Source: Ottowia beijingensis (lineage in GTDB: Bacteria > Pseudomonadota > Gammaproteobacteria > Burkholderiales > Burkholderiaceae_C). Taken from it: a DNA stretch of 64,000 nt. The position numbers were made by a program, and so were the translations under genes. The first letter of the stretch is position 1, and every line of letters begins with the position of its first letter. The notes below the pieces were generated by a model. The model was not told the origin of the DNA. It searched no databases and worked only from the letters and a program-made list of their open reading frames with translations. Below, in pieces: positions 6,701 to 62,272 of this stretch. Where the stretch lies: positions 3,906,001 through 3,970,000 of the forward strand of contig NZ_JACCKX010000001.1 in assembly GCF_013423955.1 (NCBI RefSeq), given 5' to 3'.

Positions 6701-6790
6701 TGCGTCAGCCGCTGGGACTGGCCATCCCAGACCGTTGGCCATTCTCCTGCGCTGAGCGCCGCGTCCTTCAGCTTCGGCAAGCTCTTCTCG

Positions 6791-6847
6791 GATGCCTCGG
6801 GATGCCTCGGGATGCCTCGGGATGCCTCGGGATGCCTCGGGATGCCT
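6791..6847. repeat. 10-bp tandem repeat, about 5.7 copies
   Basis: Five exact head-to-tail copies of GATGCCTCGG (6791-6840) are followed by a partial copy, in the gap between the MaoC gene and the convergent ChaC-like gene. A period of 10 bp is about one helical turn. It is too short and regular for a CRISPR array and has no spacers. Confidence 0.95.
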
Positions 6848-35695: not shown

Positions 35696-35712
35696 TTATT
35701 TAATGATTGAAA

Positions 35713-35757
35713 ACAGGCTTCAGCGCCCAGTCATCGGGCGCCAGCAGCTCTTTATTT
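35713..35757. repeat. dispersed palindromic repeat, copy A
   Basis: AGGCTTCAGCGCCC, a short loop, then GGGCGCCAGCAGCT followed by TTTATTTC. This matches the family frame GGC-T-CCAGCGC...GCGC-nnn-AGCTATC in reverse orientation. It lies in the gap between the IS and the DIP1984-family gene. Confidence 0.7.
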
Positions 35758-35833
35758 CATACTGCAACATGGCGCCAAATGGCTATCGCCTGTTCTGGCC
35801 GCTTGCAGGTGTGTGCGGGCGCCGTGGCGCGCT

Positions 35834-38616: not shown

Positions 38617-39158
38617 ATGAAACCTGCCCGCGCCCTGCTTTTCGCGCTGACCCTGGCCGCCACCATGGCCGCGCACGCCCAGTACCAGTGGATCGACAAG
38701 GACGGCCGCCGCGTGTTCAGCGACCGCCCGCCACCCGCCGACGTGCCGCAGAAGAACGTGCTGAAGCAGCCGCGCATGTCGAACGCGCCGCTGATCACCA
38801 CGGCACCGGCAGCGCCTGCCGCGGCCGCCAGCACCCCGCCGCGGGCGAGGCACCCAACGCCGCCACCCGCCCGGCGGCAGCCGCCAGCGCTGCGCCCGCC
38901 GGCGTCGACAAGGCGCTGGAAGAGAAGAAGAAGCAGGCCGAGGCCGCCGAAGCCGCCAAGAAGAAGGCCGAGCAGGAAAAGGTGGCCGCTGCCCGCGCCG
39001 AGAACTGCAAGCGCGCCATGAACGCCAAGGCCACGCTGGATTCGGGCATGCGCATGGCGCGCCTGAACGACAAGGGCGAGCGCGAAGTGCTGGACGACGC
39101 CCAGCGCGCGGCCGAGCTGAAGCGCGTCAACCAGATCATTGCGCAGGATTGCAAATAA
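38617..39158 (+). CDS. DUF4124 domain-containing periplasmic protein (apparent frameshift)
   Basis: About 180 residues. A signal peptide [20 protein letters not shown] ending in AQA is followed by [20 protein letters not shown], the DUF4124 motif. A Pro/Ala linker leads to a charged coiled coil ([20 protein letters not shown]) and a C-terminal [20 protein letters not shown] with a second Cys at QDCK. The signal part and the coiled coil are in different frames, joined if one C is added to 38834-38837. Its function is unknown. It is divergent from guaB and convergent with rnfH, with a terminator between. Confidence 0.8.
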
Positions 39159-39168
39159 GCATCCCATC

Positions 39169-39207
39169 GGGCTTCAGCGCCCGTCCATAAAGCGCCGACA
39201 GCTATCT
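39169..39207. repeat. dispersed palindromic repeat, copy B
   Basis: GGGCTTCAGCGCCC, loop, AGCGCCGACAGCTATC in reverse orientation, just after the DUF4124 stop and before the shared terminator. Confidence 0.75.
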
Positions 39208-39225
39208 AAACCATAGCATTGGCAC

Positions 39226-42831: not shown

Positions 42832-43880
42832 TCGCAGATCATATCAAAATGATAGCTTCCAGCGCCCACCTGTCGGGCGCTGGAGGCCAATTTGGCTTGT
42901 GAAAAGTCGCGCAGGCGACGCCGGCGCGCCCTAGGCCGGCCCGAGCGGTGCGACATCGCTCTCGTCCGCCGCTGGCGGCCCCGCCGCACCGCGCGCCAGC
43001 CCAGCAGCTCATTCGCCAGCAGCGCGCCAATGACCAGTGTGCCGCCCGCCAGCACCTCGGGCCGGGGCGCTTCGCCCACGATCAGCCACACCAGCGCGAT
43101 GCCGAACACGATCTCCAGCAAGCCCAGCAGCGCCACCTCGGCGGCCGGCAGCACGCGCGCGCACAGCACCGCCAGCACGCACGGAATCGCCAGCTGCGTG
43201 AAGCCCAGAAACGCCAGCCAGCCCAGGTCGCCCGCCGTGGCCTGGAACGGCCAGGCCAGCGGCAGCGTGACGGCGCTGGAGATCAGCGCGCCCAGCAGCA
43301 CCGCCGGCACCAGGTCAATCGGCTCGCCCTGCGCCTGGCTGCGCTGCACCACCGTCCAGTTCACCGCCGCGGCCATGGGCACGCCCAGCGCGACGATGGA
43401 GCCCAGCCACTGCGTCGCGCTTTTCGCATCGCCCGCCCCAAGACCGAGCTGCCCGACGAACATCCACGCCATGCCGAGGCCGCCCACCACGATGGCCGCC
43501 CAGGTGCGCGCCGGCAAGCGGTGGCCGGTCACCACGCGGGCGATCAGCGCCGTCAGCAGCGGGCCCAGCGCCATGGTGACGAGCACGCGCGCCACGCCGG
43601 TCATCGTCAGCGCCACCATAAAGGCGGTGAACATCACCGCCCAGCACACGCCCGACAGCCAGAATGTGCCGCGCCGCCACGGCAGCCGCGCGAACACGCC
43701 CGGCCCTTGCCACAGCGGCAGGATGACGAGCAGCGACAGCGCGTTGAAGGCGCTGCGCCAGAACGTCACCTCGAACCCCTGCGCCACCTGCAGCTGCCGC
43801 GTCACCACGCCGGCGGTGGACCACAGCAGCGTGGCCAGCACCATCATCCACGCGGCGCGGGCGTGAGACCAGGGCTTCAT
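42828..43880 (-). CDS. EamA/DMT-family transporter with repeat-derived tail
   Basis: 350 residues, ten hydrophobic segments in two EamA halves (AAWMMVLATLLWSTAGVVTR; GSIVALGVPMAAAVNWTVVQ), an inner-membrane metabolite exporter of unknown cargo. After GALLANELLGWRAVRRGRQR the sequence turns into a basic, non-helical tail of about 50 residues. Its last 20 or so (KLASSARQVGAGSYHF) are translated from palindromic repeat copy D. The original stop may have been lost, or a frame error lies near residue 300. The stop overlaps the next gene's start. Confidence 0.82.
   Translation of the reverse strand: MKPWSHARAAWMMVLATLLWSTAGVVTRQLQVAQGFEVTFWRSAFNALSLLVILPLWQGPGVFARLPWRRGTFWLSGVCWAVMFTAFMVALTMTGVARVLVTMALGPLLTALIARVVTGHRLPARTWAAIVVGGLGMAWMFVGQLGLGAGDAKSATQWLGSIVALGVPMAAAVNWTVVQRSQAQGEPIDLVPAVLLGALISSAVTLPLAWPFQATAGDLGWLAFLGFTQLAIPCVLAVLCARVLPAAEVALLGLLEIVFGIALVWLIVGEAPRPEVLAGGTLVIGALLANELLGWRAVRRGRQRRTRAMSHRSGRPRARRRRLRDFSQAKLASSARQVGAGSYHFDMICE
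42841..42892. repeat. dispersed palindromic repeat, copy D
   Basis: ATATCAAAATGATAGCTTCC, AGCGCCC, loop, GGGCGCTGGAGGCCAATTT. The best-preserved copy, in forward orientation, forming the 3' end of the EamA gene. Confidence 0.85.
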
Positions 43881-49342: not shown

Positions 49343-50285
49343 CCCCCAGCATCTGCTGCAACTCGACGGGCGAGAGCAGGCGCTGGGCGATCAGCTCGCC
49401 CGCGCGAACATGCGCGGTGCCCAGCAGCGCGCGCGGCCGCGCGCCGAACACGGCCACCTGCGCCGCATCGGGCCAGTCGCCACGCCGGCGCATGCCGGCC
49501 AGAAAGCGCCCGGCCTCCTCGCCTTCCAGGGTGATGGGTAAATGATCGGGCAGCAGGGCCTCGGGCGGCAGCAAGGCCGCCAGCCGCGCCGCGTCATCCA
49601 GCGCCTCCAGGGCTTGCAAGGTGATGCACTGGGCGGTGAGGAAGGGGCCGGTCGCGGTGCGGCGCAAGCGGCTCAGGTGCCCACCGCAGCCCAGCGCCTG
49701 GCCGATGTCTTCGCCCAACGTCCGGATGTAGGTGCCCTTGCTGCAGGAAACTTCAATATCGATAGCTACCAGCGCTTGCCCAGATTGCGCTGGAGCCATA
49801 TTCAGCTTATAAATTTGGACGGTGCGCGCCGCGCGCTCCACCTCGATGCCCTGGCGCGCGTATTCATACAGCGCCTTGCCGTCCTTCTTCAGCGCGCTGT
49901 GCATGGGCGGCACCTGGGTGATGCGGCCCAGAAAGCGCTGGCGCACCGCTTCGAGCTGTTCGGCGGTGATGGCGGGGACCGCGCGTTGCGCCAGCACCTC
50001 GCCTTCGGCATCGCCGGTGGTGGTGGTCACGCCCAGCTGGATCGTGGCCTCGTACGTCTTGTCGGCGTCCAGGTGCAGGCCGCTGAACTTGGTGGCCGCG
50101 CCAAAGCACAAGGGCAGCACGCCGGTGGCGAGCGGATCGAGCGTACCGGTGTGGCCGGCCTTTTCGGCACGCAGCAGCCACTTGGCCTTCTGCAGCGCCT
50201 GGTTGCTGGACAGGCCCAGCGGTTTGTCGAGCAGCAACACCCCATGCACCGGGCGCCGCTGCACCCGCGCACGAGGAGCAGCCAT
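49335..50285 (-). CDS. truB: tRNA pseudouridine(55) synthase with in-frame repeat insertion
   Basis: 316 residues. [20 protein letters not shown], the catalytic Asp in [20 protein letters not shown], and [15 protein letters not shown] are the TruB motifs, and it makes pseudouridine 55 of tRNA. Between the [11 protein letters not shown] strand and the CSKGTYIR motif there is an extra segment, [16 protein letters not shown], translated from palindromic repeat copy E (49757-49803). ATG 50285 overlaps the rbfA stop in TGATG; a GTG one codon earlier is possible. Last gene of the rimP-nusA-infB-rbfA-truB operon. Confidence 0.95.
49757..49803. repeat. dispersed palindromic repeat, copy E, inside truB
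   Basis: ATATCGATAGCTACC, AGCGC, loop, GCGCTGGAGCCATATT in forward orientation. The frame is kept through it, so it adds residues rather than breaking truB. Confidence 0.85.
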
Positions 50286-61126: not shown

Positions 61127-62272
61127 CTATGGATCAAGGCATCGGGCCACCTCGGCGCCCAGCGCCAGACAACTTGTCAGCCCAGGCGACTCGATGCCGA
61201 ACAGGTTGACCAGCCCCGGCACGCCGTGCTCGCGCGGGCCCTGGATCATGAAGTCGGCGGCCGCTTCGCCCGGGCCGGTGAGCTTGGGGCGGATGCCGGC
61301 GTAGCCCGGCTGCAGCGCGCCGTCGGCCAGGCCGGGCCAGTAGCGGCGCACTTCGTCGTAGAAGCTGTCGGCGCGCGCCGCGTCGACGCGATAGTCGTCG
61401 CCCGCGTCCTGCCACTGAACGTCTGGCCCGAACTTGGCCTGGCCGCCCAGGTCGAGCGTGAGATGCACGCCCAGACTGGGCGAATCGCGCTCGACCACGG
61501 GGTAGATCAGGTGCGCGAACGGCGCACGGCCGCCGAGGGTGAAGTAGTTGCCCTTGGCCCAGTGCGTCGGCATTGGCGGGCGATGCTCGGGCGCCAGGCC
61601 CTGCGTTCGATGCGCCAGCGCGATGGCGCCCAGGCCGGCGGCGTTGACGACCTGACGGGCTTGCAGCACCAGTTCGTCACCGCTCTGGCCGGGGTCGGAA
61701 ACTCCTATATTGATAGCTGCTAGCGCCGGCCCTGACTGCGCTGCAAGCCAATTCACCTTGAATTCACCGCCAGCACGCCACCGGCGTTCTCCACGTCGCC
61801 CAGCAGCGACAGCATCAGGCCATGGCTGTCGACGATGCCGGTGGAAGGCGACAGCAGCGCGGCCTGGCAGCTGAGCTGCGGCTCCAGCGCATGCGCCTCG
61901 GCACGCGGGAGCCAGCGCAGGTCGGTCACGCCGTTGGCGACGGCGCGCGCCTCGATGGCGCGCAGTTCGCGCACCTGCGCATCGTTGCACGCCACGATGA
62001 GCTTGCCGCAGCGGCGGTGCCCGATGCCACGCTCGGTGCAGTAGTCGTACAGCATCCGCCGGCCCTGCACGCACAGCCCCGCTTTCAGGGATCCGGCCGG
62101 GTAATAGATGCCGGCGTGGATGACCTCGCTGTTGCGCGCGCTCGTCATGGTGCCGAAGGTGTGTTCAGCCTCCAGCACCATCACCTCGCGCCCAGCCAGG
62201 GCCAGCGCGCGCCACCGCCAGGCCCACCACGCCGGCGCCGATGACCACGGTATCGACCTGCTCGGCGCTCAT
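61127..62272 (-). CDS. FAD-dependent oxidoreductase, L-2-hydroxyglutarate oxidase-like (two apparent frameshifts, repeat insertion)
   Basis: About 381 residues, DAO fold. [20 protein letters not shown] begins the FAD site; [20 protein letters not shown] and [20 protein letters not shown] follow, then [16 protein letters not shown] and [19 protein letters not shown], as in LhgO and related oxidases. It is in three frames: a CG-run change near 62205-62212 and one base missing near 61766. Residues [16 protein letters not shown] in the substrate domain are translated from repeat copy H. The start overlaps the end of the HDAC-like gene (ATGA). Substrate uncertain. Confidence 0.82.
61703..61752. 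repeat. dispersed palindromic repeat, copy H, inside the FAD oxidase gene
   Basis: CCTATATTGATAGCTGCT, AGCGC, loop, GCGCTGCAAGCCAATTC in forward orientation. The reading frame passes through it. A short direct repeat GGTGAATT flanks its right end on the coding strand. Confidence 0.85.

Follow-up and report, generated by a model that had tools for sequence, protein, structure and literature searches.

The truB gene of Ottowia beijingensis contains, in frame and on its antisense strand, a complete copy of a 64-nt palindromic repeat that elsewhere in the genome lies mostly between genes, and DNA recognizable as the same repeat occupies the same truB site in several genera. We consider it likely that an old copy of a mobile palindromic repeat of the Comamonadaceae overwrote a permissive hairpin of TruB and was thereafter retained as protein. 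The evidence comes from the window, the 64,000-nt stretch of DNA analyzed here (positions 3,906,001 to 3,970,000 of contig NZ_JACCKX010000001.1), from a wider sample of the same genome, and from the orthologous genes of relatives.

A dispersed palindromic repeat

The unit of the repeat is 64 nt, with conservation dropping off beyond it. Its main palindrome (approximately CCAGCGCTTG-loop-CAAGCGCTGG) is flanked to one side by a small GCTAT/ATAGC stem and to the other by an AT-rich tail. Searches employed a covariance model of 64 positions, seeded with 25 copies from elsewhere in the genome, the truB copy being absent; 30 loci with a perfect core had provided 28 aligned copies at first, of which 25 were retained. 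Across the 4.29-Mb genome, the core ATAGCTNNNAGCGCTTG is found at 277 places (148 + 129) when up to one mismatch is allowed, and at least 150 model matches reach 45 bits, a level attained by all of the 150 candidates scored; these totals count a few copies repeatedly, because contigs C2, C3, and C4 appear to duplicate part of C1. Such redundancy is suggested by repeat copies with identical scores on those contigs and on C1 near 3.80–3.86 Mb, in an assembly of four contigs with about 89% completeness and 5% contamination. The core pattern read backwards, which served as a control, does not occur in the genome.

Genomic context was assigned in 864 kb of the ~4.3-Mb genome, sampled as the window and 40 further stretches, each of 20 kb; GC content in this sample is 68%. 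Classification took in copies scoring from about 31 bits upward: the first 464 kb gave 58 matches at E 0.01, of which five at 27.3–29.3 bits were left out to leave 53, and all 38 matches of the second sample were retained. Most of these 91 copies are intergenic (76), although coding calls cover ~80% of the sample; 12 lie inside uninterrupted coding frames and three overlap gene ends, as labeled by a home-made codon-usage scorer applied to stop-to-stop frames, with which an "inside" copy is open by definition, and a copy that disrupts a gene would be scored as intergenic or partial. Extrapolation from this sample gives an estimate of roughly 450 copies per genome, 60 of them within genes. The 91 copies range in GC content from 0.39 to 0.61 and show no replication-strand bias, with 25 plus and 24 minus at positive GC skew, and 25 plus and 17 minus at negative skew.

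Within the window, intergenic copies accompany the one in truB (Table 1). The intergenic copy at 42840 is also matched by the model on the opposite strand, at 42855–42883 (19.9 bits, E 0.041), because it has dyad symmetry. At 6790–6847, the window also holds 10-bp tandem units (GGATGCCTCG).

Table 1. truB and the copies of the 64-nt repeat in the window.
Feature	Position	Strand	Basis
truB, tRNA pseudouridine(55) synthase, 317 aa	49335-50288	minus	ORF list, Pfam PF01509, NCBIfam TIGR00431
Full 64-nt dispersed repeat copy, antisense to truB	49750-49813	+	covariance model positions 1-64, 50.1 bits; PWM 60.0
Conserved left half of repeat core, ATAGCTACCAGCGCTTG	49762-49778	+	pattern search
Left arm CCAGCGC of main palindrome	49769-49775	+	fold and sequence
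Right arm GCGCTGG of main palindrome	49787-49793	+	fold and sequence
Intergenic repeat copy	35700-35763	-	model, 33.0 bits
Intergenic repeat copy	39154-39217	-	model, 47.6 bits
Intergenic repeat copy	42840-42903	+	model, 53.4 bits
Intergenic repeat copy	61701-61764	+	model, 44.6 bits

Rfam, searched at gathering thresholds, gave no match in the window. The repeat model matched 17 of 60 sampled genomes of the family, the window's own included (E 1e-4, stricter filter), and, again under the stricter filter, none of 40 genomes sampled from other families of the order. Within these samples, the repeat is restricted to the window's own family, probably the Ottowia/Comamonadaceae group.

Tagged REP sequences associate with RAYT (Y1) transposases. 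The genome has three matches to Y1_Tnp (Y1 transposase), one of them with an internal stop, and no significant RAYT link emerged for the repeat: the three loci (9.7 kb) hold one copy, which is about chance, given an average spacing of 9.5 kb (~1 expected). Nor was any mobilizer, transposase, target duplication, or recent insertion identified for the repeat.

A full repeat copy in frame in truB

The truB product matches TIGR00431 at 248.1 bits (cut-off 151.45; E 6.7e-74), and the repeat spans its codons 159–180, short of one base at either end (the first of 159, the last of 180). An initial annotation of this DNA had described a 47-nt palindrome here, with the frame open across it. The covariance model recovers the copy end to end, albeit over 64 nt, and the truB reading frame does indeed run through it uninterrupted. 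The single exact occurrence of ATAGCTNNNAGCGCTTG in the window falls at this place (49762–49778, +), and GC content is 0.45 in the repeat segment versus 0.70 in the remainder of truB.

The same annotation took the segment to be an addition of about 15 residues, at a point where homologs would go straight on and most close relatives would show a gap. Neither expectation held. The TruB of E. coli is only 4 residues shorter than the window TruB over this region, and repeat-free loops in the genus are mostly 0–4 residues shorter, one 102-residue loop aside; a simple ~15-residue insertion in truB was rejected on these lengths.

The truB site across relatives

The site was compared in 167 rows, comprising the best 80 of 555 loci, the best 30 from the family, the best 30 from the order, 26 from the genus, and the window, with some genes represented twice. 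Two fragments (L196 and L198) were left out; the rows include L197, identical as a gene to L195, and L175, which is the window's own truB. From LYEYAR to GTYIR, the loop measures 50 residues in 100 rows, 46 in 50, and some other length in 17. Of the two observations that had been named as telling against a palindrome in truB, one was made and the other was not: as a rule, the loop is of much the same length in relatives, but its DNA matches the repeat, with a positive PWM score within ±6 nt of the site, in 53 of the 167 rows, a fraction that is not a prevalence because the 80-locus set was picked by likeness to the window TruB. One of the six query words for that set (VQIYKLNM) overlaps the repeat-coded part. 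All 53 positives lie on the same strand and in one register, and the best antisense score more than 40 nt off the site is −2.8 in any row. They are drawn from the best loci (33/80), the family (7/30), the genus (12/26), and the window itself; there are none among the 30 order rows, of which 29 represent other Burkholderiales families, where the loop has 46 residues in 25 of the 29. Named carriers include Ottowia spp., Rhodoferax bucti, Comamonas badia, Simplicispira lacusdiani, Extensimonas, and Xenophilus. Some genus rows share their TruB loop with named Ottowia records (L031 and L181, L037 and L180, L039 and L187), in keeping with Ottowia as the probable genus.

Within the genus, 13 of 25 truB genes are repeat-free, and their loops are of 50 (seven genes), 48 (one), 47 (two), 46 (two), and 102 (one) residues, against 50 in the window. 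Across all rows, repeat-free and repeat-bearing loops of 50 residues are equal in number, at 50 rows each. There is therefore no clean empty site in truB from which insertion can be read directly, and decay or replacement must be assumed.

A single-gene truB tree, midpoint-rooted and with the loop excluded, scatters the positives across the core Comamonadaceae, including the early-branching L112. The same region of the tree contains repeat-free 50-residue loops, for instance in Limnohabitans, Pseudacidovorax, and part of the window's genus, as well as 46-residue loops in some Variovorax and Ramlibacter, and PWM scores grade continuously from near-consensus to faint. We read this pattern as an early and presumably single entry, followed by decay and loss. 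Because recognizable repeat DNA stands at the same site in several genera, the truB insertion does not look recent; it is the most widely shared case seen among the in-gene repeats.

The repeat is nevertheless patchy, both on the tree and within the genus, as it might be if the truB hairpin were a hot spot that had received several independent hits by the same and other repeats, with losses between them. A gene of the same genus lends this some weight: the 102-residue loop of L195 (1940–2160; genome G142) contains in frame three different GC-rich palindromic units, recognized by eye, and has no match to the 64-nt repeat model. Since that loop holds different palindromes, the truB loop appears permissive, and another repeat seems to have hit the site. 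Against recurrent entry, however, stand the common strand of all 53 positives and their single register relative to the SKG motif, the continuous grading of their scores, and a codon-position pattern (described below) that suggests long residence. We regard recurrent entry as possible but somewhat doubtful, and favor early entry with subsequent decay.

Other features of the site deserve mention. Mean pairwise identity among 50-residue loops is 0.61 for repeat-bearing versus 0.48 for repeat-free rows (0.57 and 0.61 at third positions); homogenization toward the repeat could account for the higher identity, and common ancestry explains it equally well. Three loci have a second strong copy ~400–500 nt upstream of truB (L031 999–1062, L034 1044–1107, and L037 1046–1109), and the model search found no such extra copy in the window. 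The truB loops of L071, L088, and L097, from two Rhodoferax records and one uncultured betaproteobacterium, have a variant stem, AGCCCTT/AAGGGC, with matching changes in both arms, and perhaps represent a subfamily of the repeat.

Selection on the peptide or on the nucleic acid

An AlphaFold model based on 46 sequences (mean pLDDT 91.5, pTM 0.86) places strands at residues 155–166 and 175–182 with a turn between them, immediately before the KGTYIR motif, and the repeat is thus predicted to encode most of a beta-hairpin. Comparison by codon position indicates how this hairpin may have been maintained. The 41 distinct 50-residue truB copies have a pairwise identity of 0.61 at position 1, 0.68 at position 2, and 0.52 at position 3; for 69 intergenic copies taken in the truB frame, the values are 0.60, 0.56, and 0.61. 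The difference between positions 2 and 3 has a 95% bootstrap interval of 0.13 to 0.19 in truB and of −0.07 to −0.03 in intergenic copies, the relatedness of rows being ignored. Such a constraint suggests that it is the peptide that has been selected, and that the repeat has resided in truB for a long time.

A palindrome could alternatively be retained in truB for a role as an RNA or DNA hairpin, in mRNA stability, pausing, or protein binding, rather than as protein. The window copy alone folds well (−19.9 kcal/mol, z −3.3), but with its flanks it folds no better than shuffled sequences (z −0.16). Watson–Crick pairing is 0.46 in truB copies, 0.21–0.29 in slid controls, and 0.77 in intergenic copies; a level between the controls and the intergenic copies is as expected of a decaying palindrome, and descent alone would produce the excess over controls. 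Covariation in the stem is not clear among the 41 truB copies, where, of 410 cells, 226 are paired while column shuffles pair 214.5 ± 6.7, the observed count being equaled or exceeded in 30 of 500 shuffles, and where double-change pair types number 15 versus 14.6 in shuffles. With clear covariation missing, selection on the hairpin as nucleic acid is not supported, and the codon-position constraint favors the peptide. We therefore hold a nucleic acid role in truB to be improbable, and retention as protein to be the better account.

The repeat in other enzymes

Hosts were identified for seven of the 12 in-gene copies in the 864-kb sample: TruB, ProA, DapF, MoeA, an amidase, a FAA hydrolase family protein, and an ABC-F ATPase. 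Of the remainder, L245 had no family match, and L313, L317, L323, and L325 were left out of the host search. Six of the 12 copies, truB included, are read in one antisense frame, giving peptides like NxPPAxxxxQAQxAI; five are read in one sense frame, giving peptides like IAxxAxxAGAEGQFxLK; and one occupies a second antisense frame. That at least 11 of 12 should fall in the two main frames has P = 0.001, calculated from how often each frame is open in intergenic copies, with the pair of frames chosen after seeing the data.

Orthologs within the genus provide a comparison of filled and repeat-free sites. Searching 29 genomes per gene and counting only genes with a usable match, we found the repeat in frame in TruB (12/25), DapF (10/20), ProA (15/26), and MoeA (9/16), the rest being repeat-free at the same sites; presence was defined by an author-chosen PWM cut of 0, near which the TruB of G120 (−3.2) and the DapF of G124 (−9.8) are borderline. 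The DapF figure refers to 20 genes, four extra rows being second halves of counted genes; the ProA figure leaves out the fragment L302 and lower-scoring paralogs; and the MoeA figure comprises the 16 matches above the family cut-off. ProA offers the cleanest contrast: the distance between anchors is 52 residues in 14 of the 15 filled genes and 53 in the other, and 38–41 residues in eight of the 11 repeat-free genes, the others having 45, 47, and 50. In DapF and MoeA, filled genes are longer overall, with more scatter and some overlap with repeat-free genes. Measured against broad family profiles, the matched stretch of the window genome's protein is longer by ~19 residues in ProA and ~22 in MoeA, but by only 4 in TruB. 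The proA gene of the window genome is split over two frames, ~280 nt before its in-frame repeat (L240 239–1042; L301/L304, G000:C1:1699739–1701039), which may reflect a sequencing or assembly error, or a pseudogene.

The presence of the same repeat in frame at unrelated sites in DapF, ProA, and MoeA also bears on whether the truB segment could be an ordinary variable loop, in which AT-rich codons were chosen convergently within a tolerant hairpin and no repeat was involved. Loop lengths do vary, and residues 163–182 contain no invariant column in the alignment of 46 relatives. Yet the DNA matches from end to end, at 50 bits, a model made without truB copies, and the match exceeds what the peptide requires, since none of 2 × 20,000 recodings of the same 22 residues attains the observed PWM score of 60.0 (best 39.4 bits with synonymous recoding by host codon usage, and 58.9 bits with uniform codons). 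An ordinary loop is accordingly exceedingly improbable, and just as far-fetched is removal of the segment after transcription or its bypass in translation, which sits poorly with the codon-position constraint and a structurally sensible predicted hairpin.

Relation to known repeats

Ogata and colleagues, in 2000 and 2002, reportedly described Rickettsia palindromic elements (RPEs) in the protein genes of that genus. The initial annotation had likened the truB palindrome to these elements, and the likeness is borne out by 12 in-gene copies in 864 kb and by a dispersed palindrome that occurs in intergenic DNA as well as in frame within conserved protein-coding genes, here those of TruB, DapF, ProA, and MoeA. 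Compared by description, the differences are nonetheless considerable. RPEs are 105–146 bp long, rather than 64 nt, and belong to an obligate intracellular host (PMC2229807, PMC3733652), whereas the present host has a ~4.3-Mb genome with 68% GC in the sampled part. In truB, moreover, the net change in length is ~4 residues and the copy is common to several genera. Activity has been measured for one RPE enzyme, according to review text (PMC2229807/PMC3733652).

Other small repeats resemble the Ottowia repeat in part. ERIC/RU-1, RU-2, RU-3, and NEMIS/Correia are small non-autonomous repeats whose open frames are fused in frame to other genes (PMC2229807, PMC2759123), but they are ~100–200 bp long, occur in other taxa, and, in the case of RU-3, are fused mostly to hypothetical proteins (PMC2229807). 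Closer in taxonomy is BRE, a repeat of Bordetella and Comamonadaceae that is usually intergenic with some copies wholly within coding sequence (Hot et al. 2011; PMC3110155), as here. It is set apart by description: BRE measures 75–91 bp in Bordetella (about 90 bp at full length), has a mean GC content of 69%, reaches at most 29 copies per genome, and is sometimes tandem (PMC3110155), while the present repeat has 64 nt, GC 0.39–0.61, and 91 copies in 864 kb, or an estimated 450 per genome. REP sequences are likewise short palindromes of high copy number and mostly intergenic location, with GTAG or CGTC tags (PMC3733652); the 25-copy consensus has, by eye, neither tag beside the hairpin, and the RAYT link was not found for the 64-nt repeat. 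In the open-licence PMC literature, we found no description of this repeat, or of protein-coding palindromes in Comamonadaceae housekeeping genes. One candidate for a prior report of the core, PMC10501959, was rejected, as the core letters occur there only in a primer.

A proposed course of events

The observations can be assembled into a tentative history of the truB copy. A short, probably non-autonomous mobile palindromic repeat would have entered truB near the base of a Comamonadaceae-group clade, landing in the permissive beta-hairpin that immediately precedes the conserved KGTYIR motif. Entry in an open frame of the repeat would have supplied a mild peptide, with a Pro/Ala/Gln-rich turn and hydrophobic-alternating ends, presumably neutral for enzyme function. 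Because the net gain is ~4 residues while the repeat covers 21, the native hairpin would have been effectively overwritten, or else trimmed after insertion. Thereafter, the segment would have been translated within TruB, with protein-level selection maintaining a two-stranded hairpin while the repeat sequence decayed lineage by lineage. The same repeat would also have entered DapF, ProA, MoeA, and other genes, most copies settling between genes.

A bolder generalization is that the repeat constitutes a ready-made hairpin module, which overwrites hairpins or loops in core enzymes with little change in length and is then refined at the protein level as it loses its palindromic character. We think this unlikely to apply in general. 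Were it true, it would provide a family-wide route by which selfish DNA could replace native parts of TruB and several other enzymes.

Implications

In-frame palindromes in conserved enzymes have been described for Rickettsia (PMC2229807, PMC3733652) and, judging by a cited title, for Wolbachia. In those cases, the relaxed selection that comes with an intracellular life might be responsible. Here they occur in the conserved enzymes of a betaproteobacterial group with large genomes, and comparison of sequences suggests that, in the Comamonadaceae group, a family of palindromic repeats turned into coding sequence within several core enzymes. Filled and repeat-free orthologs of DapF, ProA, and MoeA exist side by side in one genus, and the record of TruB extends across genera. 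Together they form a comparative series, from near-consensus to faint, in which the conversion of selfish DNA to protein can be followed, and which is open to experiment because some of the carriers are named isolates.
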